NCBI GenBank assembly: GCA_031283505.1
Contig: JAITBO010000203.1
Location: 1-8,551 of the forward strand
Length of the DNA stretch: 8,551 nucleotides
Reading direction: 5' to 3'
Source of the DNA: Treponema sp.
GTDB taxonomy: Bacteria; Spirochaetota; Spirochaetia; Treponematales; Breznakiellaceae
In this document: piece by piece, positions 1 through 8,551 of the stretch
Layout: every line of letters begins with the position of its first letter
Numbering within the stretch: position 1 is the stretch's first letter
Notes under the pieces: generated by a model
The model's database searches: none
The model's input: the letters and a program-made list of their open reading frames with translations, nothing else
What the model was told of the DNA's origin: nothing
Made by a program: the position numbers and the translations under genes

Positions 1-279
1 GCCGTGGATAATATCCGTTTCTTCTGTTTTGGCGGTGATCATGATAATGGGAATTTTTGATATTTCCCGTATTTTACGGCAAAACACCTCGCCGGAGAAG
101 TCCGGAAGCATAAGGTCCAAAAGTATCAGGGAAACGGAATTCCTTTCAAAAAGGCCCATGCCTTCCCTGCCGTTTTTGGCGCAAAGGGCTGTATACCCGT
201 TTATTTCGAGGTAGGACTTTACGAGACTAAGGATTTTTTCTTCATCATCCACAACAAGGACCGTCTGCTTATCTTTCAT
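1..279 (-). CDS. OmpR-type response regulator, N-terminal receiver domain (partial)
   Basis: Reading leftwards from the ATG at 277-279, 93 codons stay open to the window edge, so the C-terminal output domain is not visible. The protein starts MKDKQTVLVVDDEEKILSLV. It shows the receiver-domain landmarks: the acidic pair D11/D12, the phospho-acceptor D55 in LLDLMLPD, and T82 in the IIMITAK segment after beta-4. The conserved lysine of beta-5 would lie beyond the edge. The wording around D55 and T82 is typical of the OmpR/PhoB subfamily, which would normally carry a winged-helix DNA-binding domain. A partner histidine kinase would be expected further left but cannot be seen. The promoter region shares a repeat with the efflux operon promoter, which suggests that this regulator controls the pump and itself (inference). 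There is no Shine-Dalgarno sequence before the ATG. An in-frame TGA about 14 codons upstream, with no other start codon between, fixes this start. Confidence 0.9.
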   Translation of the reverse strand, partial: MKDKQTVLVVDDEEKILSLVKSYLEINGYTALCAKNGREGMGLFERNSVSLILLDLMLPDFSGEVFCRKIREISKIPIIMITAKTEETDIIHG

Positions 280-286
280 AGCCGCT

Positions 287-338
287 GGTATACCACAGAA
301 TTGTGAAAGGATTATGGCTAAATTATGTCAAAATTGTG
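287..338 (-). promoter_or_regulatory. Response-regulator promoter with four 11-bp-phased CAYAAT boxes
   Basis: On the plus strand ATTGTG, ATTATG, ATTATG and ATTGTG start at 300, 311, 322 and 333, exactly 11 bp apart. Read on the minus strand they are CACAAT, CATAAT, CATAAT, CACAAT. The next slot downstream carries GGTATACC (287-294), a plausible -10 element, and no good -35 hexamer lies 16-18 bp upstream of it. Direct repeats on an 11-bp period next to a -10 with no -35 are the known geometry of PhoB/OmpR-family activator sites. The -10 is so close to the ATG at 279 that the transcript would have almost no 5' leader. The box array is seen directly; the regulator assignment is inference. Confidence 0.65.
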
Positions 339-386
339 TTTTTTTGCATTTTTTAGCCGGGTGAATGAAGCACAGAAAAAATTTAT
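296..386 (-). repeat. 91-bp promoter-segment repeat, copy 1
   Basis: This stretch matches 7491-7580 with four substitutions and one single-base indel in an A run (about 86 of 91 columns identical by hand count). Both copies have the same orientation, and each lies directly upstream of a minus-strand transcription unit. The repeat includes the four phased boxes, an A/T-rich stretch (AAAAAATGCAAAAAAA on the minus strand) that could be bent or act as an UP element, and a GC patch. Identity extends well beyond the boxes, so common descent by duplication or conversion is more likely than convergence on a binding site. Confidence 0.9.
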
Positions 387-450
387 TTAGGGAATCTCCG
401 GAAGCTGAAGTTTTCAGAGCCTCTCTTTAGAGTATGGCTAAAGGGTTACG

Positions 451-495
451 AAAAAAATCAAGAAACAAGGACGCTGTTTTCACAGCGTCCCTTGT
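451..495 (-). terminator. Intrinsic terminator of the efflux operon
   Basis: A strong hairpin lies at 465-495. GGACGCTGT (469-477) pairs with ACAGCGTCC (482-490) around a TTTC loop, and the stem continues through ACAAG/CTTGT with one bulged base. On the minus strand it is followed by a U-rich tail, including seven Ts complementary to 451-457. It begins 8 nt after the stop codon of the last operon gene (503-505), exactly where a rho-independent terminator should be. Confidence 0.9.
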
Positions 496-502
496 TCCCA
501 GG

Positions 503-973
503 TCAATTCATGCCCTGTAGTTTTTTCCGCACTTCCTCGATAATCATCTGCAAAGTGTCAACCTTGTCCTCAAGCTCAAGCAAATCGGGGCTTCGTGTAC
601 CTGCGATAGTTCTCACCTCGTTCACTGCGATGGTCAAACGGTCTTTCAGGGCGGTGTCGGTGATGTGGGGCGTTACCTTGTCGGTCGCGGTGGTTAAACG
701 GCTGACGCTGTTCCGTGCATCCATAGTCCGCCCGGCTTTTAACTGGCTCAAGATGTCGTCAGCGGCTTTTTCTATATCATGGGTAAAGGGAACAGGGTCT
801 TCGTTTGCCATACCCGCGCCGTGGCCGCCCCCACCGCTTGTATCGCCGGAGTTTCCCATACCGCCCATACCACCGCTTTGCGCTGTTGCTATTTGTCCTG
901 TTCCAAAGGCAAACATCGCCATGAACAGAACAACCGTCAGTTTGGTTGTAAACAACCTTAGCAGGTTTTTCAT
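503..973 (-). CDS. Small exported Gly/Met/His-rich helical protein, last gene of the efflux operon
   Basis: This encodes 156 residues if it starts at the ATG at 971-973, which has a perfect AAGGAGG eight bases upstream. An in-frame ATG 25 codons earlier has no such site. Residues 1-31 form a signal peptide (basic MKNLLRLFTTK, hydrophobic core, cleavage probably after ATA at 31), so the product should be periplasmic or surface-exposed. Mature residues 33-57 are Gly/Ser-rich with four Met and one His (GGMGGMGNSG and GHGAGMA). Residues 60-154 look fully alpha-helical with no cysteine, perhaps a small helical bundle. I do not recognise the family. It follows the RND pump by 67 bp, and a terminator lies just after it. 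The Gly/Met tract resembles those in the pump and the lipoprotein of the same operon, so a periplasmic metal-binding or pump-accessory role is a reasonable guess, in the position where other systems carry CusF-like chaperones. It is not CusF-like in sequence. Confidence 0.85.
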   Translation of the reverse strand: MKNLLRLFTTKLTVVLFMAMFAFGTGQIATAQSGGMGGMGNSGDTSGGGGHGAGMANEDPVPFTHDIEKAADDILSQLKAGRTMDARNSVSRLTTATDKVTPHITDTALKDRLTIAVNEVRTIAGTRSPDLLELEDKVDTLQMIIEEVRKKLQGMN

Positions 974-1009
974 TTTCAAAACCTCCTTAACAATTTTGAT
1001 GCCTTTAAT

Positions 1010-1042
1010 CACACACAACAATTGTGCCGGCATTGTGTTTTT
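1010..1042 (-). promoter_or_regulatory. Pair of 11-bp-phased CACAAT boxes before the last operon gene
   Basis: In the 67-bp gap between the pump gene and the small Gly/Met-rich gene, ATTGTG occurs at 1021-1026 and 1032-1037 on the plus strand (CACAAT twice on the minus strand, 11 bp apart). The upstream unit, AAAAACACAAT, resembles the first unit of the main operon array, AAAACCACAAT. The next slot is not TATA-like; only a weak GATTAA at 1005-1010 follows. It may be an internal promoter or operator for the last gene, or chance. Confidence 0.35.
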
Positions 1043-4000
1043 ACGCAACCTTCTCTTTTCTGTTATACCAGGTCCAATAAATGCAGGGCAGAATAAACAA
1101 TGTCAGTATCGTTGAAGTAATCAAGCCGCCGGTAACAACAATCGCCATTGGGTATTGCATTTCCGCGCCGGTACCGCTGGCAAAGAGAAGGCTCAAGCTG
1201 GCAGCAAGGGTCGTGCCGGCGGTCATCATCACGGGACGCAGGCGGGATAACGCGCCTTCAAAAACAGCTTCCCTGAGGGGCAGTTTTTCACGTAGCTGTT
1301 TGATGTACGTTACCATTATCACGCCGTTTTCAAGAGCTATGCCGCCCAAAGCAATGTAGCCTACTGCCGCCGCTACGGTAAAAAAGGTGCCGGTCAAGAG
1401 CATGGCTACAATGCCACCCACAAGAGAAAAAGGAATATTGAGTAGTATCAGTACCGCATCGCTCCATGACTTAAAGGCCATGTAGAGCAGAAAGGCCATC
1501 AACAGGAACACTACCGGAATGACCATCGCAAGCCGCGACTTGGCCCGCCGCTGATTTTCATACTGGCCGGTCCACTTGTAGGAGTAACCGGGGGGCAGTT
1601 CTACTTTTTCTTTGATAACGGCGTTTGCTTCATTGACAAAACTTACCACATCCCGGTCACGGCTGTTCATCTGAATAACCAGCACCGGCATACTGTCTTC
1701 GCTGGAAATCATTGACGGGCCATCGGCAATGCGGAATTGTGCCACATCTCCCAACGGCACATACACCGGCCCCTGCACGGTGGAAGCTATACCGCTCGAT
1801 AAGCCGCCTGCTGATGTTGTGGAAACTGCGGGCTGATCCGCGCCCATGCCGCTCATTGCGCCACCGGAGGAATCGCCCATACCTCCGCCGCTCATACCGC
1901 TGTCACCGCCGCCCATGCTGTTACCCATGCCGGAAGAAGAAGCCGCTATACTGCCGCCGCCAGAAATGGGTATCAGAATGTCCTGCATAGCGTCTATACT
2001 TTCGCGGCTTTCACGGTTGTAGCGCACCAGCACGTCAAAGCGCCGTCTCCCTTCAATCGTTTTGGTGGCAACCCTGCCCCCGATGGCAAGTTCTATGGCG
2101 TTCTGCACATCCGAAACATTAAGGCCGTAGTGGGCGGTTTTTTCACGGTCAACCTGGATTTCAAGATAGGCCGCGCCGAGTACGCGCTCGGCAAGAAGGT
2201 CGCTTACGCCGCTCACATTACGCAGGGCGTTTTCAATATCGAAGGCTTTTTCCTGCAAAACCCTAATGTCCTCGCCGTAGAGTTTTATGCCTAGATCGGT
2301 ACGTACACCGGTAGTCAGCATGGCAAGCCGCCCGGCGATAGGCTGGGTAAACGCCATGTTTAACCCCGGCAATGCGGATAGTTTTTCCATCATCTGGTGT
2401 TCAATCGCTTCCTGTGTTAATTCTTTACGCCACTGTTTTTTCGGCTTGAGGGTAACAATGGTTTCAATCATACTGACAGGAGCGGGGTCCATCGCCGTTT
2501 CGGCCCGGCCAACTTTGCTCACCGAAAGTTCAATCTCCGGTATTTCCATGATAAGCTGGTCCATCGTTTTTGCGCTTTCCACCGCCTGGCTTAAAGACAC
2601 GCTGGGGAGCATGGTCGGCATGACGAGGAACGTTCCTTCGTTGAGGTCCGGCATAAAGGTTGTGCCGATAAAGGGGGCAAGCCCGATGCCGCCTATAATT
2701 GTGATAAGCGCCGCGAGGACCGTGGCTTTCCGGTGTTTCAATACCCATTTCAGGGCAGGCCGGTATATCTTGTTCATGGCCCTGACGATAAACGTTTCTT
2801 TTTCGCTGATTTTGCCTTTCAGCAAAAACGTACACAACACCGGGACGATGGTGAAAGCTACGATGAGGGAACCTGTCATGGCGAAACTTTTTGTCCAGGC
2901 AAGCGGGGTGTAGAGTTTGCCTTCTATGCCGGTCATGGTGAACACCGGCAGAAAGGTAACGATAATGATGACAAGCGAGAAAAAAATTGATGACGATACT
3001 TCCTTTGAGGCGTCTCTGGTTATGTCTACAATGGAACGTCCTCCGGTATTTTTTGCCAGCCTGCCGTAGACATTTTCAACGATGACGATTCCCGCGTCCA
3101 CCATCACGCCGATGCCGACGGCGATACCGCCCAATGACATGAGATTTGCCGACAGTCCTATTTGCCTCATGGCGATAAAGGCCAGAAGGATTCCCAGGGG
3201 GATGACGCTGGCGACAATGATGCTTGAACGGATATGCCCCAGGAAAAGAATGAGGATAATACTCACCAGGATTGATTCCTGTATCAGTTCCCGGACCAGG
3301 CTGTTAACCGCTTCCAGCACGAGTTCGGTCTGGTCGTAAAACGGCACAATACGCACCCCTTCCGGCAAGGACGGCGTTATTTCGGTGATTTTTTCTTTTA
3401 CCGCGCTAATCACATCCAGTGTGTTAACACCCATACGGGAAATGACGATGCCGCCCGCGGCTTCGTGTCCGTATTTCGTCAGCACCCCGCGCCGAAAATC
3501 CGGACCGGCGGCGATTTTCGCTATATCCTTGACAAACACCGGCACATAGTTGTTTTGCGTAACCACGATATTCCGTATATCTTCAATTGATTCAATCAGG
3601 CCCAATCCGCGGATAATGAATTCCTGCCCGTTCTGTTCTACTACTTTCGCGCCAAGGTTGGCGTTGTTCGCGGCAATCGCGCCGTACACCTGATTGAACG
3701 TTACCCGGTAGCTCTGCATAAGGGCAGGGTCAAGGTTTACCTGATACTGCATGACATAGCCGCCTACGCTGGCAACTTCCGCAACGCCGGGAACGCTGGC
3801 AAGCTGCTGTTTAATCGTGAAGTCCTGTAAAGTTCGGAGGTCGGCAAGGCCGTAGCTGTCGCTTTCCACGGTATACATGAACACCTGTCCCATCGTGGTG
3901 CTTACCGGGCCGAGGGAGGGCATAACATCCGCGGGTAGCTGCGGTGTGGCCGCCTGTAATTTTTCGCTGACCACCTGCCGCGCAAAGTAGGGGTCTACGC

Positions 4001-4298
4001 CATCCTCAAAAATAACGGTGATGAGGGACATACCGAAAGACGAAGCGGAGCGGACCTGTTTGACCATTGGCAGCCCCCGCATGGCAGTTTCCAGCGGGTA
4101 GGTTACCTGATCCTGTATCTCCTGCGGCCCCCGGCCCATCCAGTCTGCGGAGACAAGCACCTGGTTTTCGCTCAGGTCGGGATATGCGTCAACCGGCGTC
4201 TGGCGTATCACAAAAAATCCGTAGACGATAACAAGCACGGTTAAAGCGATGATGATTACCCTGTTTTTCAGGGAAAAATTGATAATGGCGTTCAGCAT
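1041..4298 (-). CDS. cusA: CusA-type heavy-metal efflux RND transporter, probably Cu(I)/Ag(I)
   Basis: The product has 1085 residues, the usual length of HME-RND pumps plus an insertion. It is the inner-membrane proton antiporter of a tripartite pump. The family layout is intact: TM1 at about 12-31, a large periplasmic loop, TM2-6 at about 340-493, TM7 at about 525-545, a second periplasmic loop, and TM8-12 at about 922-1074. TM4 carries the HME-type motif GIGVMVDAGIVIVEN with D401, and TM10 has E990 in ALENGV; both align with proton-relay residues of CusA. Substrate-site methionines M560 (VMPTMLP), M610 (APVSMIET, with E612) and M660 (RLAMLTTG) align with CusA M573, M623 and M672, favouring Cu(I)/Ag(I) over Zn/Co/Cd. 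The equivalent of CusA K984 is valine (RLRPVMMT), as in CzcA-like pumps. Residues about 779-843 are an unusual Gly/Ser/Met-rich insertion. The start has AGGAGG seven bases upstream, overlapping the stop of the upstream gene. Confidence 0.93.
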   Translation of the reverse strand: MLNAIINFSLKNRVIIIALTVLVIVYGFFVIRQTPVDAYPDLSENQVLVSADWMGRGPQEIQDQVTYPLETAMRGLPMVKQVRSASSFGMSLITVIFEDGVDPYFARQVVSEKLQAATPQLPADVMPSLGPVSTTMGQVFMYTVESDSYGLADLRTLQDFTIKQQLASVPGVAEVASVGGYVMQYQVNLDPALMQSYRVTFNQVYGAIAANNANLGAKVVEQNGQEFIIRGLGLIESIEDIRNIVVTQNNYVPVFVKDIAKIAAGPDFRRGVLTKYGHEAAGGIVISRMGVNTLDVISAVKEKITEITPSLPEGVRIVPFYDQTELVLEAVNSLVRELIQESILVSIILILFLGHIRSSIIVASVIPLGILLAFIAMRQIGLSANLMSLGGIAVGIGVMVDAGIVIVENVYGRLAKNTGGRSIVDITRDASKEVSSSIFFSLVIIIVTFLPVFTMTGIEGKLYTPLAWTKSFAMTGSLIVAFTIVPVLCTFLLKGKISEKETFIVRAMNKIYRPALKWVLKHRKATVLAALITIIGGIGLAPFIGTTFMPDLNEGTFLVMPTMLPSVSLSQAVESAKTMDQLIMEIPEIELSVSKVGRAETAMDPAPVSMIETIVTLKPKKQWRKELTQEAIEHQMMEKLSALPGLNMAFTQPIAGRLAMLTTGVRTDLGIKLYGEDIRVLQEKAFDIENALRNVSGVSDLLAERVLGAAYLEIQVDREKTAHYGLNVSDVQNAIELAIGGRVATKTIEGRRRFDVLVRYNRESRESIDAMQDILIPISGGGSIAASSSGMGNSMGGGDSGMSGGGMGDSSGGAMSGMGADQPAVSTTSAGGLSSGIASTVQGPVYVPLGDVAQFRIADGPSMISSEDSMPVLVIQMNSRDRDVVSFVNEANAVIKEKVELPPGYSYKWTGQYENQRRAKSRLAMVIPVVFLLMAFLLYMAFKSWSDAVLILLNIPFSLVGGIVAMLLTGTFFTVAAAVGYIALGGIALENGVIMVTYIKQLREKLPLREAVFEGALSRLRPVMMTAGTTLAASLSLLFASGTGAEMQYPMAIVVTGGLITSTILTLFILPCIYWTWYNRKEKVA

Positions 4299-4309
4299 TT
4301 CAGGTCCTC

Positions 4310-5449
4310 CTAATTGTGGCCGCCGCTTGACGCGCCGCCGTGGCCGCCATGACTGCTGAGAGCGCCAAGTTTGGTTTGCGAGTCAAGGAGGAAGGCGGCG
4401 GCGCTTACTATTATGTCGCCCTCATCAATGCCGGATAGTATTTGCACATAGCCGTTGGCATATTGCCCCGCCTGAACCGCGTGTCTGACAAAGGTATTTT
4501 CATTTTGTGCCCAAAACACCATCTGCCCCTCCGCGCCTTCGAGTATTGACGTTTCCGGTATAACAATGCTTTCCCCCAAAGGGACACGGATTGACGCGCC
4601 GACAAACATATTCGGTTTTAATTTACCTTCGCTGTTGTCAAGTTCTACCCGCACTTTCAAGGTGCGGGTAACATCATCCAGCACAGGACTGATGAACACT
4701 ACCTTGCCGGTAAAGGTTTCACCGGGATAAGCCTGGCTGGTAATAAGCGCTTCCTGTCCTGTCCGTACATTGGCAATATCTTTTTCGTAAATATCCGCGG
4801 TTATCCATGCGGTAGAGAGGTCAACAAGGCTGTAGAGCCGGTCGCCGGGCCTGATATACACGCCGGGAAGCATTTGCCTTTCCAGTACGATACCGCCGAA
4901 TTGAGCGTATATCGGCATATATTCCCGCGCCTGTTTTGCCTGCTCCAGGCGGCGTATATCGCTGTCCGGCACATTCAGAATTGAAAGCCGCCGCCGCGCT
5001 GCTTCCTGCAAGGCGGCGTTGGTTCCGTCCAAAAGCTGTAAATATTCTTCCTGCGCGGCGATATAGGCGGGGCTGTAGACTTCGCCTAAGACCTGGCCGG
5101 GGTAGATGTATTCGCCTTCCACCGCCGCATAGAGCCGCTCAAGGCGGCCTTCAACACGGGAGGTAAGATAGGTCCTTGCCCTTTCGTTGATAACGATTTT
5201 ACCCGTAGTTTTTATGTCTTTTCGCAAATTCCGCACCGCCGCCCGTGCGGTCTGTATTCCCGCAAGCTGCCGCGCCCGTTCGTCAAGGGTAACGGTATCG
5301 CCTGATACTACGATGGGCCTTGAAGCCGGGACTGTGTTTTCCGTCATGGTTATTTCAGACTGCGGTTTTATCACCTTAAAATAAAATCCAATACCGGCAA
5401 TAACCAAAACGATAACTGCTCCACCAATAATTTTTATGCCCCTGTTCAT
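4310..5449 (-). CDS. cusB: RND periplasmic adaptor (membrane fusion protein), CusB-type
   Basis: This 379-residue adaptor would link the RND pump to the outer-membrane channel in the periplasm. An uncleaved N-terminal anchor spans about residues 5-24, and there is no lipobox. Split lipoyl (barrel-sandwich) halves are seen at about 99-129 (VEGRLERLY, PGQVLGEVYSP) and 182-216 (FGGIVLERQMLPG, SLVDLSTAWI). They are separated by a short helical hairpin at about 130-178. A beta-barrel (about 218-290, ending KLKPNMFVGASI) and a membrane-proximal domain (about 295-355) follow. The heavy-metal-binding N-terminal YHS-like domain of some CusB relatives is absent; only M35 lies near the N-terminus. The last 14 residues form a Gly/Ser/His tail with H367, H370 and H378 that could bind metal. 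The start has AAGGAG eight bases upstream. The gaps to its neighbours are 16 and 11 bp, so it is surely co-transcribed. Confidence 0.92.
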   Translation of the reverse strand: MNRGIKIIGGAVIVLVIAGIGFYFKVIKPQSEITMTENTVPASRPIVVSGDTVTLDERARQLAGIQTARAAVRNLRKDIKTTGKIVINERARTYLTSRVEGRLERLYAAVEGEYIYPGQVLGEVYSPAYIAAQEEYLQLLDGTNAALQEAARRRLSILNVPDSDIRRLEQAKQAREYMPIYAQFGGIVLERQMLPGVYIRPGDRLYSLVDLSTAWITADIYEKDIANVRTGQEALITSQAYPGETFTGKVVFISPVLDDVTRTLKVRVELDNSEGKLKPNMFVGASIRVPLGESIVIPETSILEGAEGQMVFWAQNENTFVRHAVQAGQYANGYVQILSGIDEGDIIVSAAAFLLDSQTKLGALSSHGGHGGASSGGHN

Positions 5450-5465
5450 TTTTTACACTCCTTGT

Positions 5466-6791
5466 TTAGTACCGCTGTCCGCTGTCTGGAAAATACGGCT
5501 GACCGATTATCTGTTCAAGCCCCGCAAGGGCTTTTTCGTAATCCACATGGGATTTGAAGTAATCAAGCCGGGCGTTGCGTAAACTGGTAAGGCTGTCCAT
5601 GACGGACATAAAATCGCCCCTTCCGCTCCGGTAGGCGGTAATAACGGCCTGCCAGGTCTGTTCTGCCTGGGGGATGACGGTTTTTTCGTAAAGGTCGATG
5701 AGCCGCCGTGCGGACTGTGCCCCGCTTACGGCCATCGACAAATCCATGCTTGCCATATTCCGCATATCCGCCAATGCTGCTTGTGCGGCGGCAACACCCG
5801 CGTTTGCTGATTTTACCTGTGCGTTGTACTGTCCGAACCAGAGAGGCAGCATGACCATAAAACCGACTTTCCATGAATTTCTGTTGGTCTCCCGCATATC
5901 GAGGGAATAATCGGCGCGGCCTGTCCGGGTGTCCAGCATCTTCATCAACATGGGGTCCATCACCGTGGATTGGACAAAACTGAAACTCAATTTGAAGTCC
6001 GGCCAAAATTGGCTTCTTGCCATTGACACATTGTTTCGCGCCATTTCAAGTTCCCAGGTCATGCTTGCAATGGCAGGATTGTTTTGTGATAAGCGCCGCA
6101 GTTCATCAAGATTAAATTCGGGAACAGCAGTTGAAAATTCCTCATGTATGGCAAGGGGCGTATCCGCTTCCCGGCCTAAAAAATAATTGAGCTTGTTTTT
6201 CGCCATAGTTTCCATAGTTTCCATGTTGAGAATGTCGGTTTCCATTTTTGCAAGTTCCGTTTGTGAACGCAGTGTGTCTTGCAGGGGGGAAGCGCCGCTT
6301 GAATAATTGGCCGCCGTAACCATATTAAACTGCCGCATGAGTTCCAGATTTTCACGCATGATTGCAAGGCTCTGCTGCGCGTACAATAAATCGTAGTAGG
6401 CTTGCTTTACGGCGACATACACCTCCATCTGTTTTACCTGAAAATCCGCGCCCGCCATGCCCGCCTCGCTTTTTGCCATGTTCCGCATGGCTATAAGTTT
6501 TGTGGGGAACATGATTTCCTGGGACAGGCTGTACTCAAACATCATGGGCTTGCCGCCGTTTGCGGGAATGTCGTCTAACATGACACCAAATTCAGGGTTG
6601 GGCCAGCCGCTGGTGATGGCGATGCTCCGCTGTTTTTCTATCCACCGCTGGCGGCTTGCGATCAGAGCGGGGTTGTTGTTGCCCGCAAGGTCCAGGGCTT
6701 GCTGCAAGGTTAACGGCTCCGCTTCCTGTGCGGTGATAAAACTTGCAAGCAAAACAAGCGCGGCTGCAAACAACCATTCTTTTGTTCTCAT
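5466..6791 (-). CDS. cusC: TolC-family outer-membrane efflux channel (CusC-like)
   Basis: The product has 441 residues, the usual size of an outer-membrane factor. A signal peptide spans residues 1-21 (MRTKEWLFAAALVLLASFITA, cleaved before QEAE). No cysteine follows, so unlike E. coli CusC it is not a lipoprotein. The mature chain has the two-fold internal repeat of the family: LTLQQALDLAGNNNPALIASR at about 27-47 corresponds to FNLDELRRLSQNNPAIASM at about 226-244. Each is followed by helical and strand segments, and the second ends with a long helix containing AYRSGRGDF at about 386-394. The predicted outer loop of the second repeat is Met-rich (M278, M281, M283, M285 in VMDPMLMKML), and MM occurs at 83-84, which suits a copper/silver system but is only suggestive. 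Its ATG lies one base after the TAG of the preceding lipoprotein gene, implying translational coupling. A GGGGGG run eight bases upstream may act as ribosome binding site. Confidence 0.9.
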   Translation of the reverse strand: MRTKEWLFAAALVLLASFITAQEAEPLTLQQALDLAGNNNPALIASRQRWIEKQRSIAITSGWPNPEFGVMLDDIPANGGKPMMFEYSLSQEIMFPTKLIAMRNMAKSEAGMAGADFQVKQMEVYVAVKQAYYDLLYAQQSLAIMRENLELMRQFNMVTAANYSSGASPLQDTLRSQTELAKMETDILNMETMETMAKNKLNYFLGREADTPLAIHEEFSTAVPEFNLDELRRLSQNNPAIASMTWELEMARNNVSMARSQFWPDFKLSFSFVQSTVMDPMLMKMLDTRTGRADYSLDMRETNRNSWKVGFMVMLPLWFGQYNAQVKSANAGVAAAQAALADMRNMASMDLSMAVSGAQSARRLIDLYEKTVIPQAEQTWQAVITAYRSGRGDFMSVMDSLTSLRNARLDYFKSHVDYEKALAGLEQIIGQPYFPDSGQRY

Positions 6792-6792
6792 T

Positions 6793-7350
6793 CTACATAC
6801 CCCCCATGCCGCCGCCGGCTTCTTTTTTTGTTATAGGCATATTCATAAAATTTTTCAGTTCCGAACCAGAGAAACCAACAATTTTCGTGCTTACCGGCGC
6901 CATATATGACAGCCTTACATTGGAAAATTTGTCCCCATCTTCCGCCTCGCCGCTAAACGCTATTTGAAAATGGTATAAGGTCTTTTCCTCTCCCCGAATT
7001 CTGGTAAAAGCACTGTCAAGGTTAGGGTTTTGATTGGGTGTTATGACGGCGGGAAAACTCCCGTTATAATCAAAACTCACGGTGAAGGGTGCCCATGCGC
7101 CTGCTGTTCTGTCGGACCGCACCGGCTCATCAAAGTTCAGCGTAATGTGCAGAGTTGTCGATTTCATGGAATCCATGTTCATTGAAGTAACTTCCCATAC
7201 TGCTTTTTCAATAGCAAGGTCTGAATACATATACCCGGTTTCGTTGGGTTCCATCGCAGGGCTGTCACAGCCTGCCAGAGTAAAAACGATTGCCGCCGTA
7301 ATAACGATACCACAAAAATCTGCGCCCATGATCCGCCTTATTGTTTTCAT
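6793..7350 (-). CDS. Lipoprotein of unknown family, first full gene of the efflux operon
   Basis: This 185-residue protein has a lipoprotein signal: basic MKTIRR, a hydrophobic stretch at about 14-26 and lipobox LAGC with C28 as lipidation site. The mature part looks rich in beta strands (STTLHITLNFDEPV, PFTVSFDYNG, LYHFQIAFSG, NVRLSYMAPV), suggesting a beta-sandwich or immunoglobulin-like periplasmic domain. It has a Met cluster at M57, M59, M62 and ends in AGGGMGGM. I do not recognise the family. The gene is coupled to the channel gene (stop and next ATG one base apart), so it probably serves the pump, for example as a metal-binding or assembly accessory. The start at 7348-7350 has no good Shine-Dalgarno; the alternative ATG at codon 8 has AAGGCGG close by but would lose the basic n-region. 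Upstream the frame stays open to a TGA near 7413 without any start codon. Confidence 0.85.
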   Translation of the reverse strand: MKTIRRIMGADFCGIVITAAIVFTLAGCDSPAMEPNETGYMYSDLAIEKAVWEVTSMNMDSMKSTTLHITLNFDEPVRSDRTAGAWAPFTVSFDYNGSFPAVITPNQNPNLDSAFTRIRGEEKTLYHFQIAFSGEAEDGDKFSNVRLSYMAPVSTKIVGFSGSELKNFMNMPITKKEAGGGMGGM

Positions 7351-7414
7351 ATATAGCTTTGTTTCTTTTTTTGTGTGTGCATGGTCCCATTTTTTTGTGT
7401 GTTCCGTGATTCAT
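7265..7414 (-). CDS. Possible 49-residue leader ORF overlapping the lipoprotein start
   Basis: The strongest ribosome binding site at the head of the operon, AAAGGAGG (AGGAGG at 7421-7426), lies six bases before the ATG at 7412-7414. It does not serve the lipoprotein frame. This frame encodes 49 residues beginning MNHGTHKKMGPCTHKKRN, rich in His, Lys and Arg with one Cys, and ends with TGA at 7265-7267, 86 bases inside the lipoprotein gene. Two A7 runs (complement of 7366-7372 and 7390-7396) lie in it. Loss of one A, or a slip, would join this start to the lipoprotein frame. It may be a regulatory leader peptide, a coupling ORF, or the true start broken by a one-base change or sequencing error. 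It has no recognisable domain. Confidence 0.4.
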   Translation of the reverse strand: MNHGTHKKMGPCTHKKRNKAIYENNKADHGRRFLWYRYYGGNRFYSGRL

Positions 7415-7420
7415 AATTCG

Positions 7421-7447
7421 CCTCCTTTGCCTTTGGTAGTTCAAAGG
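7421..7447 (-). promoter_or_regulatory. 5' leader hairpin next to the leader-ORF ribosome binding site
   Basis: On the minus strand CCTTTG (7442-7447) can pair with CAAAGG (7430-7435) around a 6-base loop. The identical CAAAGG at 7424-7429 overlaps the Shine-Dalgarno AGGAGG, so CCTTTG could instead mask the ribosome binding site. Two mutually exclusive pairings of this kind could tune translation. Stems are only six pairs, so this is tentative. Confidence 0.3.
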
Positions 7448-7483
7448 GATATGAGTTTTCACCTTTTCTGGTGACGCCAAAAA

Positions 7484-7533
7484 TCTATAACAGAATTGTG
7501 AAAGGATTATGACTAAATTATGTCAAAATTGTG
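7484..7533 (-). promoter_or_regulatory. Efflux-operon promoter with four 11-bp-phased CAYAAT boxes
   Basis: On the plus strand ATTGTG, ATTATG, ATTATG and ATTGTG start at 7495, 7506, 7517 and 7528, exactly 11 bp apart, as before the response regulator. On the minus strand the units read AAAACCACAAT, TTTGACATAAT, TTAGTCATAAT and CCTTTCACAAT, followed by TCTGTTATAGA, where TATAGA (7484-7489) is a good -10. The would-be -35 position 17 bp upstream is TCATAA, a poor match, so activation by a regulator bound to the boxes is likely. Transcription would start near 7476, giving a leader of about 60 bases to the leader ORF. Confidence 0.7.
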
Positions 7534-7580
7534 GTTTTTTGCATTTTTTAGCCGGATGAACGAAGCACAGAAAAATTTAT
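7491..7580 (-). repeat. 91-bp promoter-segment repeat, copy 2
   Basis: Near-identical to 296-386, same orientation, offset 7195 bp without indels until an A run at the end. It carries the operon's regulator boxes. A 5'-truncated gene remnant begins 37 bp to its right, which may mark the break left by the duplication. Confidence 0.9.
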
Positions 7581-7606
7581 CAAAAAATTCAGTTTTTTTT
7601 AATATC

Positions 7607-7634
7607 CATAATTTAATCACAATTCAGGGATAAA
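7607..7634 (+). promoter_or_regulatory. Rightward promoter-like site with two phased boxes before the HMA gene
   Basis: On the plus strand CATAAT (7607-7612), CACAAT (7618-7623) and GATAAA (7629-7634) follow one another at 11-bp steps. This is the same order and spacing as the last two boxes and the -10 of the pump promoter (CATAAT, CACAAT, TATAGA), but facing right. It lies outside the 91-bp repeat. Transcription would start near 7641 and give the HMA gene a leader of about 150 bases containing the gene remnant. Inference from pattern only. Confidence 0.5.
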
Positions 7635-7781
7635 TTATTCAATAACCCCGAACCGTTTATCGCCGCCGGGGTCGAACCCTCCAGGATTGAGGGCTGGGCC
7701 TTTGCCCAGGTTACGGTAGATGACGCCAACGGGAAACCCATAGAGGTGGACAAGATTTTGAAACCCTTTAATCTGATATAA
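7617..7781 (+). pseudogene. 5'-truncated gene remnant (C-terminal part only), family not recognised
   Basis: After an in-frame TAA at 7614-7616 the frame is open to TAA at 7779-7781 with no ATG, GTG or TTG near its beginning. From about 7638 it reads like a real protein tail (FNNPEPFIAAGVEPSR, then IEGWAFAQVTVDDANGKP, ending KILKPFNLI), with ordinary amino-acid composition and GC-rich third positions. It ends 9 bases before the HMA start, as an operon partner would. The likely reading is a former gene of the metal locus that lost its 5' end. The predicted rightward transcript starts inside it, so it is probably not translated. I cannot name the family. Confidence 0.5.
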
Positions 7782-7790
7782 GAGGAAACT

Positions 7791-8024
7791 ATGGAAAAGG
7801 CTGTTTTGCGGGTTGATGGAATGTCCTGTGACCATTGTGTAAAAACCATCACCAAAGCGGTGGGGGAACTTCCCAGCGTGAAAAATGTAGCGATAGATAT
7901 AAAGGGCGGTACAGTTTCCTTTATGTTTGATCCGGCAAAGTCGCCGCTTGAAAATGTTGAAGCGGTTATTACCGATGCGGGTTACGATGTGAAGAGGTTA
8001 TTGAAAAACTATAACCGTAACTAG
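7791..8024 (+). CDS. HMA-domain copper chaperone, CopZ-like
   Basis: The product has 77 residues, a single heavy-metal-associated domain of normal length with the beta-alpha-beta-beta-alpha-beta fold pattern. The metal-binding loop is GMSCDHC at residues 10-16, with C13 and C16 as thiol ligands and M11 as the conserved supporting residue. The family binds Cu(I), sometimes Ag(I), and delivers it to P-type ATPases or regulators in the cytoplasm. AGAGGA lies five bases upstream of the ATG. It stands opposite to the pump operon with a shared control region between them, and a site resembling the pump promoter faces it. Presumably it buffers cytosolic copper while the pump clears the periplasm. 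It is not fused to an ATPase; the stop TAG at 8022-8024 is followed by unrelated sequence. Zn- or Hg-binding relatives have similar loops, so the metal is inferred from context. Confidence 0.92.
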   Translation: MEKAVLRVDGMSCDHCVKTITKAVGELPSVKNVAIDIKGGTVSFMFDPAKSPLENVEAVITDAGYDVKRLLKNYNRN

Positions 8025-8112: not shown

Positions 8113-8551
8113 ATGGAAAACGAAACCGGGGTACAGAACCCTTCCATTCATTCACTTATCCTCCTTGATGACTTCAAGGCTATTTTAGGCATAGATGACC
8201 GGGAGGATTGCCTTTCCCGGTACTGTCTTATCACGGCCACTTACACCGTTGAGCAATACTGCAAACGGCGGCTTTTGCGGCGGAAAAACACGGATTACTT
8301 GACTTTTACGGGGGAGTATGTTTTTACCCTGCGGGAATACCCGGTACTGAAGGTTCTAACCGTATATGCCGCAACCGCCGGAACGGTACAACGGGGAGAA
8401 CCCCTTTTTGGCCCTGCAAGTCTTGTTGATCCCAAACATTACTATTGTCTCCCCGATGAAGGTATCCATGAGGATATTCCCTTCTCGTTGGTATTACGGC
8501 CTCCCCCGCGTCTTACACAAGAGGAAATGGGGATACAGGTACGGTATTTGG
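8113..8551 (+). CDS. Phage head-tail connector-like protein (gp6-type), partial at right edge
   Basis: The frame is open from the ATG at 8113 to the window end (146 codons visible, no stop). The beginning follows the pattern I know from phage gp6-like head-tail connector/DNA-packaging proteins: LILLDDFKAILGIDDREDCL at residues 15-34 (short helix, then acidic turn). An ITATYTVEQYCKRRLL helix follows, then a strand pair and LREYPVLKVLTVYA at about 74-87. These proteins form a ring joining portal and tail. The visible length already exceeds the short (about 100-residue) members, so it may be a longer variant. No capsid or portal gene lies to its left, so the phage region would have to extend right. 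There is no Shine-Dalgarno sequence, and the upstream frame has no alternative start back to TAA at 8080. Assignment is by pattern memory, without an alignment. Confidence 0.6.
   Translation, partial: MENETGVQNPSIHSLILLDDFKAILGIDDREDCLSRYCLITATYTVEQYCKRRLLRRKNTDYLTFTGEYVFTLREYPVLKVLTVYAATAGTVQRGEPLFGPASLVDPKHYYCLPDEGIHEDIPFSLVLRPPPRLTQEEMGIQVRYL

Follow-up and report, generated by a model that had tools for sequence, protein, structure and literature searches.

Phased CAYAAT boxes around a pump operon of a Treponema contig: a probable autoregulated copper two-component regulon

A stretch of 8,551 nucleotides from Treponema sp. (contig JAITBO010000203.1 of assembly GCA_031283505.1), called the window below, was analysed for a CusCBA-type pump operon and for the CAYAAT boxes that are repeated at 11 bp around it. 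On the minus strand, the order of the open reading frames (ORFs) and other features is ORF185, CusC, CusB, CusA, ORF157, a terminator-like hairpin and a response regulator fragment, and on the plus strand it is a gene remnant, a CopZ-type HMA gene and, at the right end, an ORF like a phage head-tail adaptor. The pump is encoded by genes for a CusA-type HME-RND pump (1041-4298; TIGR00914, 1096.5 bits with a cut-off of 701.45), a CusB-type adaptor (4310-5449; HlyD_D23, 3.1e-69) and a CusC/TolC-type outer-membrane factor (5466-6791; OEP, 8.8e-39), all on the minus strand. The first gene of the operon is ORF185 (6793-7350, minus strand), which encodes a lipoprotein-like protein with 16 other homologues and matched nothing in Pfam or NCBIfam at the thresholds applied. 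The last one is ORF157 (503-976, minus strand), which encodes a small secreted protein with homologues behind CusA in the loci L001-L005 and matched in Pfam only DUF1090, below its cut-off. The regulator gene (1-279, minus strand) is cut by the contig end and codes for the N-terminal 93 residues of an OmpR/PhoB-type response regulator (Pfam Response_reg, 3.9e-19; 69.3 bits for the receiver domain with a cut-off of 30.2). The CopZ-type HMA copper chaperone (7791-8024, plus strand; HMA, 8.7e-17) has the motif GMSCDHC and scored 64.9 bits with TIGR00003 (cut-off 62), the specific CopZ models being below cut-off.

Box count and spacing test gave four arrays, with four boxes before the regulator (300-338), two before ORF157 (1021-1037, an array being found at the same position in the related locus L003), four before the pump operon (7495-7533) and two at the divergent promoter (7607-7623). 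All 12 boxes were thus found where the original prediction had placed them. Its starts at 300-333 had been given on the plus strand; CAYAAT is actually on the minus strand in the first three arrays and on the plus strand at 7607-7623 only, and in all four arrays its strand is that of the genes ahead. Eight CAYAAT pairs spaced 11 bp were counted in the window versus 0.01 expected, every same-strand pair 6-44 bp apart was at 11, 22 or 33 bp, and the arrays took in 12 of the 19 CAYAAT words of the window. The top one-degenerate hexamer at a spacing of 11 scored 8, and dinucleotide shuffles (n = 60, best over spacings 10 and 11) reached at most 2, so the post hoc choice of the motif does not explain the arrays. 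A chance origin of the phased boxes was ruled out by the pair count together with the shuffles.

For the determination of the -10 register, hexamers were scored against TATAAT at offsets from 6 to 25, counted from where the last box starts, in 11 arrays, of which two (those of the regulator of genome G070 and of genome G249, described below) came from searches favouring offset 13 and the other nine did not. The best register was offset 13 (mean 3.9 of 6) and the runner-up was offset 11 (2.6), with single-array scores at offset 13 ranging from 2 (divergent array of L003) and 3 (both other arrays of L003) up to 6. In the window, the -10-like hexamers at this offset are TATACC for the regulator (287-292, minus strand), TAGATT for the pump operon (7482-7487, minus strand; TAGATA at the equal offset in L003) and TAAATT for the divergent promoter (7631-7636, plus strand). 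The original prediction had put a TATA-like -10 into the next 11-bp slot, at offset 11, in three cases; a hexamer starting exactly there was seen in no more than two places, the pump (TATAGA) and, as a weak match, the CopZ array (GATAAA), and offset 13 replaces it. Offset 13 leaves 7 bp between the last box and the -10 and puts the start of the second-last box 24 bp before the -10, at the place of a -35. No sigma-70 promoter-like site with a consensus -35/-10 pair was found in 250-1100 and 7350-7800, in agreement with the missing -35 that had been predicted. The promoters have the make-up of PHO-box-like ones: on one strand, two or more direct repeats recur every 11 bp, a repeat takes the place of the consensus -35 and the -10 has a fixed offset, though the -10 is poor at both ORF157 arrays and at the divergent array of L003. 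As the ATG of the regulator lies only 7 nt past the -10 in the window, and 6 nt past TATAAT in the G070 homologue, the regulator mRNA is probably leaderless.

The regulator and pump arrays are both contained in a direct repeat of 89 bp (295-383 and 7490-7578, minus strand; 94% identical), each copy of which is a promoter cassette of array and AT-rich upstream stretch. All 24 of 24 box positions are identical between the copies, and the repeat stops just past the last box, so that the -10 is separate at each promoter. Because both arrays lie inside the repeat, they represent one event and their four and four boxes count once, which leaves three independent arrays. The four-site regulon of the original prediction therefore stands as to the existence of four arrays, but the regulator and pump arrays are a recent duplication. 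As the repeats are in the same orientation and flank the pump operon, the pump as a whole might be lost by recombination between them, with the promoter of the regulator remaining intact.

Among the 15 pump loci found, the nearest pump is that of L003 (Spirochaetia bacterium MS502-68), with CusA 82% identical. CAYAAT pairs are present there at the pump promoter (4066-4082), at the ORF157 promoter (10503-10519) and divergently (3991-3975). Only 102 of 188 and 73 of 127 compared positions were identical in two alignments of L003 with the window, so the boxes are kept amid rather diverged surroundings. The distance between the divergent array and the pump array is 74 bp in L003 and 73 bp in the window, and since it is kept though the divergent array of L003 faces no gene, this array may act on the pump promoter from upstream. 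CusA searched at E<=1e-150 in 394 spirochaete genomes matched in G001 and G003 only, and the CusA-type pump is therefore rare in spirochaetes.

The pattern CAYAAT-N5-CAYAAT-N7-TAKAWT was scanned in 394 Spirochaetia genomes and gave four matches in four genomes, the reversed pattern giving none. One match is the promoter of P0138 in G070, a full-length OmpR/PhoB-type regulator (Response_reg and Trans_reg_C, the latter 92.5 bits) with a kinase gene after it and 73% identity to the 93 residues of the window regulator. An array directly before the closest regulator homologue found speaks for the predicted autoregulation. P0001 and its kin were rejected as the counterpart of the window regulator, with 45-55% identity in the receiver. 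The other three matches, inspected by eye, precede a small ORF and then an outer-membrane-factor-like ORF (L246), no clear gene (L249) and a small SHOCT-like membrane protein (L247:1501, genome G183), respectively.

Nine of the 12 bare box pairs in the family of G070 were inspected, the three of G003 being left out. Three of the nine, each with a -10-like hexamer at offset 13, stand before copper-type genes, namely the G070 regulator, an HMA-DsbD gene of G070 and an HMA-DsbD gene of G107; Pfam assigned the HMA and DsbD domains in G107, and the G070 gene was matched to that of G107 by eye. By eye, five of the remaining six lie within protein-coding frames and one (L256) was without clear assignment. 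The G107 array is followed by HMA-DsbD and then by an FtrD-like gene (77% to that of L003) and CopA (76%). As far as sequence can tell, the arrays of G070, G107 and L003 support the head-to-tail 11-bp repeats in place of a -35 that had been proposed.

A search with P0138 in 278 genomes at E<=1e-60 gave 15 genes, P0138 itself included. An HMA gene lies just upstream in six of these 15 (L259, L261, L262, L263, L264 and L268), and none was found upstream of P0138 in G070. In G249, whose regulator is 70% identical, the order is a 264-aa ORF, an lp231 homologue, CopA, HMA, regulator and kinase, and this copA operon is preceded by a degenerate array, CATAAT-N5-CAAATT-N7-TATACT, in which TATACT is at offset 13. 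In the window, the lp231 gene is reduced to a remnant, its C-terminal end (7644-7781, plus strand; matched by eye), for which no Pfam match at 0.01 was obtained; in L003 (3211-3906) the gene is intact. Judged by its sequence, the segment of remnant and CopZ-type gene may be the leftover of a G249-like copper operon.

A three-box CAYAAT scan of the 394 spirochaete genomes gave six matches in five genomes and two for the reversed pattern. Viral contigs scanned for three boxes had at least 120 matching stretches, which did not enter the analysis. By eye, those in G131 and G056 are short tandem repeats and those in G073 and G372 are one shared element, and none of the three-box matches precedes a recognised copper gene. 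In G280 (L168:6420-8583), three CACAAT boxes at 11 bp stand before creD and a response regulator, downstream of a kinase, and the locus is CreBCD-like with the same 11-bp phasing.

A similar arrangement was found in Negativicutes. In the pump promoter of L002 (Anaerospora), TTCATA boxes recur every 11 bp and the -10 keeps the offset of the CAYAAT arrays. One such pair in Propionispora (G004) is upstream of CusC at a distance of about 1 kb that takes in two small ORFs, and a second one precedes the genes for DUF6803 and a regulator. The pattern TTCATA-N5-TTCATA-N9-TATNNT, searched in 250 Negativicutes genomes, gave 85 sites in 48 genomes versus three for the reversed one. When the spacing was left free from 8 to 16 bp, 107 matches were obtained, of which 11 bp accounted for 85 and the remaining eight spacings for 22 in all, and the reversed pattern gave 18 over all nine spacings. 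For classification, 76 of the 85 sites were used, eight being left out as judged duplicates and one as identical over 60 bases to another. Within 2.5 kb downstream, CusC was found at 13 of them, a regulator at 10 (eight with kinase), DUF6803 at eight, an ORF157 homologue at three and CopA/HMA at two, with any searched gene at 34. Of 30 sites with flanks of 1.5 kb, 17 had CusC, regulator or DUF6803 downstream and none had them on the divergent side. These sites resemble those of the window in the 11-bp repeats, in the -10 at 13 bp from the C of the last box and in their position before CusC, ORF157 homologues and regulator-kinase pairs; they differ in the box TTCATA, in the regulator branch and in DUF6803 and other targets. 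The best models for the three Negativicutes regulators tested were BaeR and MtrA, below cut-off. A limited literature search (titles and abstracts of open-access papers) found no description of this regulon. By eye, among the Negativicutes sites (L178-L245), those of one genome group precede OmpH-like and outer-membrane-protein-like genes in place of copper genes, and a small SHOCT-like protein is also found behind the sites L188, L209 and L214.

The whole is best explained, with a probability that we put at about 0.8, by an autoregulated copper two-component regulon in which PHO-box-like sites would replace the -35. The CAYAAT arrays would be the operators of the OmpR/PhoB-type regulator whose gene starts at 279. 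Upon copper (or silver) stress, a partner kinase would phosphorylate the regulator, and its dimers would line up head to tail along the 11-bp repeats, all bound to the same face of the DNA; because the second-last box occupies the place of the -35, the regulator is proposed to recruit RNA polymerase as a class II activator. Its own gene, the CusCBA-type pump operon, ORF157 and the divergent CopZ-type chaperone transcript would be switched on, with ORF157 having an extra promoter inside the pump operon. The arrays, their conservation, spacing, strand and -10 offset and the gene contexts are observations, and to them we add, by inference, regulator binding, activation, the identity of the metal and the kinase, which lies outside the window.

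Several findings weigh against this copper regulon. The window regulator is a fragment of 93 residues, and Trans_reg_C was seen only in its homologue P0138. CAYAAT arrays were absent from the other 14 of the 15 pump loci, of which L001 and L004, the other spirochaetes among them, were without DNA upstream of the pump. The ORF157 arrays of both the window and L003 have poor -10s (in the window TGTGAT at 1008-1013, minus strand, four of six without the A at position 2), and the divergent array of L003 has no gene ahead and the lowest -10 score. The lp231 remnant stands between the array at 7607-7623 and the CopZ-type gene, so that the predicted array before the HMA gene is confirmed in that both are present, though not as immediate neighbours. 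The regulon predicted to join sensor, pump and chaperone is likewise supported by the arrays at copper genes of relatives and at the pump and ORF157 of L003, while the chaperone part suffers from this separation. As to how common phased boxes are elsewhere, the bare pairs in nine genomes of the G070 family numbered 12 versus seven reversed, hardly an enrichment, and with the -10 added the counts were 4 versus 0 in the 394 genomes, yet 3 versus 3 for the exact pair plus TA in eight genomes chosen for P0138 relatives or arrays. Among these last three matches, one was at the copper operon of G107 and two were in G210 without a searched gene nearby (one of them abutting a long ORF), and none was in G249 despite its 70% homologue. 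The relaxed scan that yielded the G249 array also matched two sites, in L002 and L005, untied to copper genes. In Negativicutes, no searched gene was found downstream of 42 of the 76 sites, and the regulators form a separate branch in a tree on 93 residues, with 33-40% identity to the window receiver; the Negativicutes regulon therefore supports the architecture and not the window regulator.

It is unlikely that another OmpR-family regulator of the same cell uses the arrays as its operators and has the left-end regulator gene as just one of its targets. Regulator genes are often targets, the 42 Negativicutes arrays just mentioned would fit such a regulator, and the CACAAT boxes of G280 precede creD and a regulator only 28% identical; but the 73% homologue was found directly behind an array by a scan that did not require a regulator, and six of its 15 relatives are preceded by an HMA gene. 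Smaller arrays outside the 89-bp repeat, before ORF157 and the divergent gene, together with the G070 array before a homologous regulator, make it highly improbable that the two four-box arrays are a mere duplication flanking the pump, without regulatory meaning for the regulator gene. The 94% identity of the direct repeat would suit such a duplication, but the box positions are the same in both copies without exception and the -10, which the repeat does not include, is still at offset 13.

The box of CusR, a metal-related OmpR-family regulator, is a palindrome, and the true operator could be an inverted repeat of this type inside the array, the phasing being incidental. Three matches with three mismatches to a CusR palindrome were found in the window (0.37 expected; one in 200 shuffles reaches three), two of them inside arrays (325-340 and 7520-7535). 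Those two are copies of one duplication, no such match was found at the ORF157 or CopZ arrays, the window has no match within two mismatches to the consensus of AgrR, another regulator with an inverted-repeat site, and the direct repeat is the part kept in L003, G070 and G107. There is hence very little to be said for an incidental phasing, a palindromic CusR/AgrR operator was not favoured, and the boxes do differ from those of CusR as originally predicted.

For the wider distribution, a tentative suggestion is made, the odds being somewhat against it when all its parts are taken jointly. The -35-less promoter with CAT-core boxes at 11 bp would be a portable copper-promoter architecture across phyla, in which the CusCBA-ORF157 operon of Negativicutes and a few spirochaetes would have kept the same geometry with ORF157 separately boosted, the regulator would have been exchanged for another branch, the boxes would have drifted between TTCATA and CAYAAT, and the 89-bp cassette copied in the window would have put the regulator under the operator of the pump. 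This cross-phylum extent would be more interesting than the window regulon. From the copper regulon proposed above, an operator code would follow for a copper two-component system of spirochaetes that have been little studied, and likewise for the larger regulon of Negativicutes; ORF157, ORF185, lp231 and DUF6803, proteins of no known role, would be tied to copper or envelope stress.

As to the remaining features of the window, an intrinsic-terminator-like hairpin (467-492, minus strand) lies between ORF157 and the regulator promoter, one having been found versus 0.9 expected in shuffles. A His/Lys-rich ORF of 49 codons (7265-7412, minus strand) with a strong Shine-Dalgarno sequence, AAAGGAGG, overlaps the start of ORF185, as seen by eye; ORF185 itself is without a good ribosome site in the window, the 49-codon ORF was not seen in L003, and it is possibly a leader peptide. 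The ORF at 8113-8550 (plus strand) resembles the phage head-tail adaptor phrog_442 (1.4e-05), for which reason the copper genes may adjoin or sit within a prophage; a megablast of the window against phages and plasmids gave no match.

For the comparison with known systems, the model TIGR01387 (CzcR/SilR/CopR; cut-off 279.2) was used, below which P0138 (161.6 bits), the L030 regulator (130.2 bits) and the L196 regulator (183.0 bits) all remained; the window fragment, too short for class assignment, scored 50.5 bits. AgrR of Cupriavidus metallidurans is described, in the excerpts of PMC7380067, as a proposed type II activator with positive autoregulation, some sites of which carry an extra direct half-site, and the boxes of CopR and PcoR are also named there. 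It resembles the system proposed for the window, within what these excerpts state, as a metal-related OmpR-family regulator with autoregulation and extra direct half-sites, but its core is the inverted repeat ATKACANNNNTGTMAT, absent from the window within two mismatches, and the window arrays are not of the inverted-repeat kind given there for AgrR, CopR and PcoR (PMC7380067). PHO boxes, according to the portions of PMC4415409 drawn upon, are direct repeats of 11 nt, to which an OmpR/PhoB-type regulator that contacts the sigma factor binds head to tail, and the window is like them in the 11-nt repeats and in promoters with multiple boxes; it differs in CAYAAT instead of CTGTCAT-like units and in the copper genes. 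In the window, 7 bp separate the last box from the -10. In the excerpted text of PMC3140484, the gene of Corynebacterium glutamicum CopR is preceded by the box TGAAGATTTnnTGAAGATTT, a direct repeat that recurs at 11 bp; CopR binds this box and is an activator of divergent copper operons. No RND pump is among its targets named there, which are a copper ATPase and a multicopper oxidase, and its site is apparently a single one in the genome, with two repeats and another sequence (PMC3140484). Like the system proposed for the window, it is a copper two-component regulator with a direct repeat of 11-bp period, and such repeats for a copper regulator thus have, on the evidence of those excerpts, a precedent in C. 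glutamicum CopR (PMC3140484).

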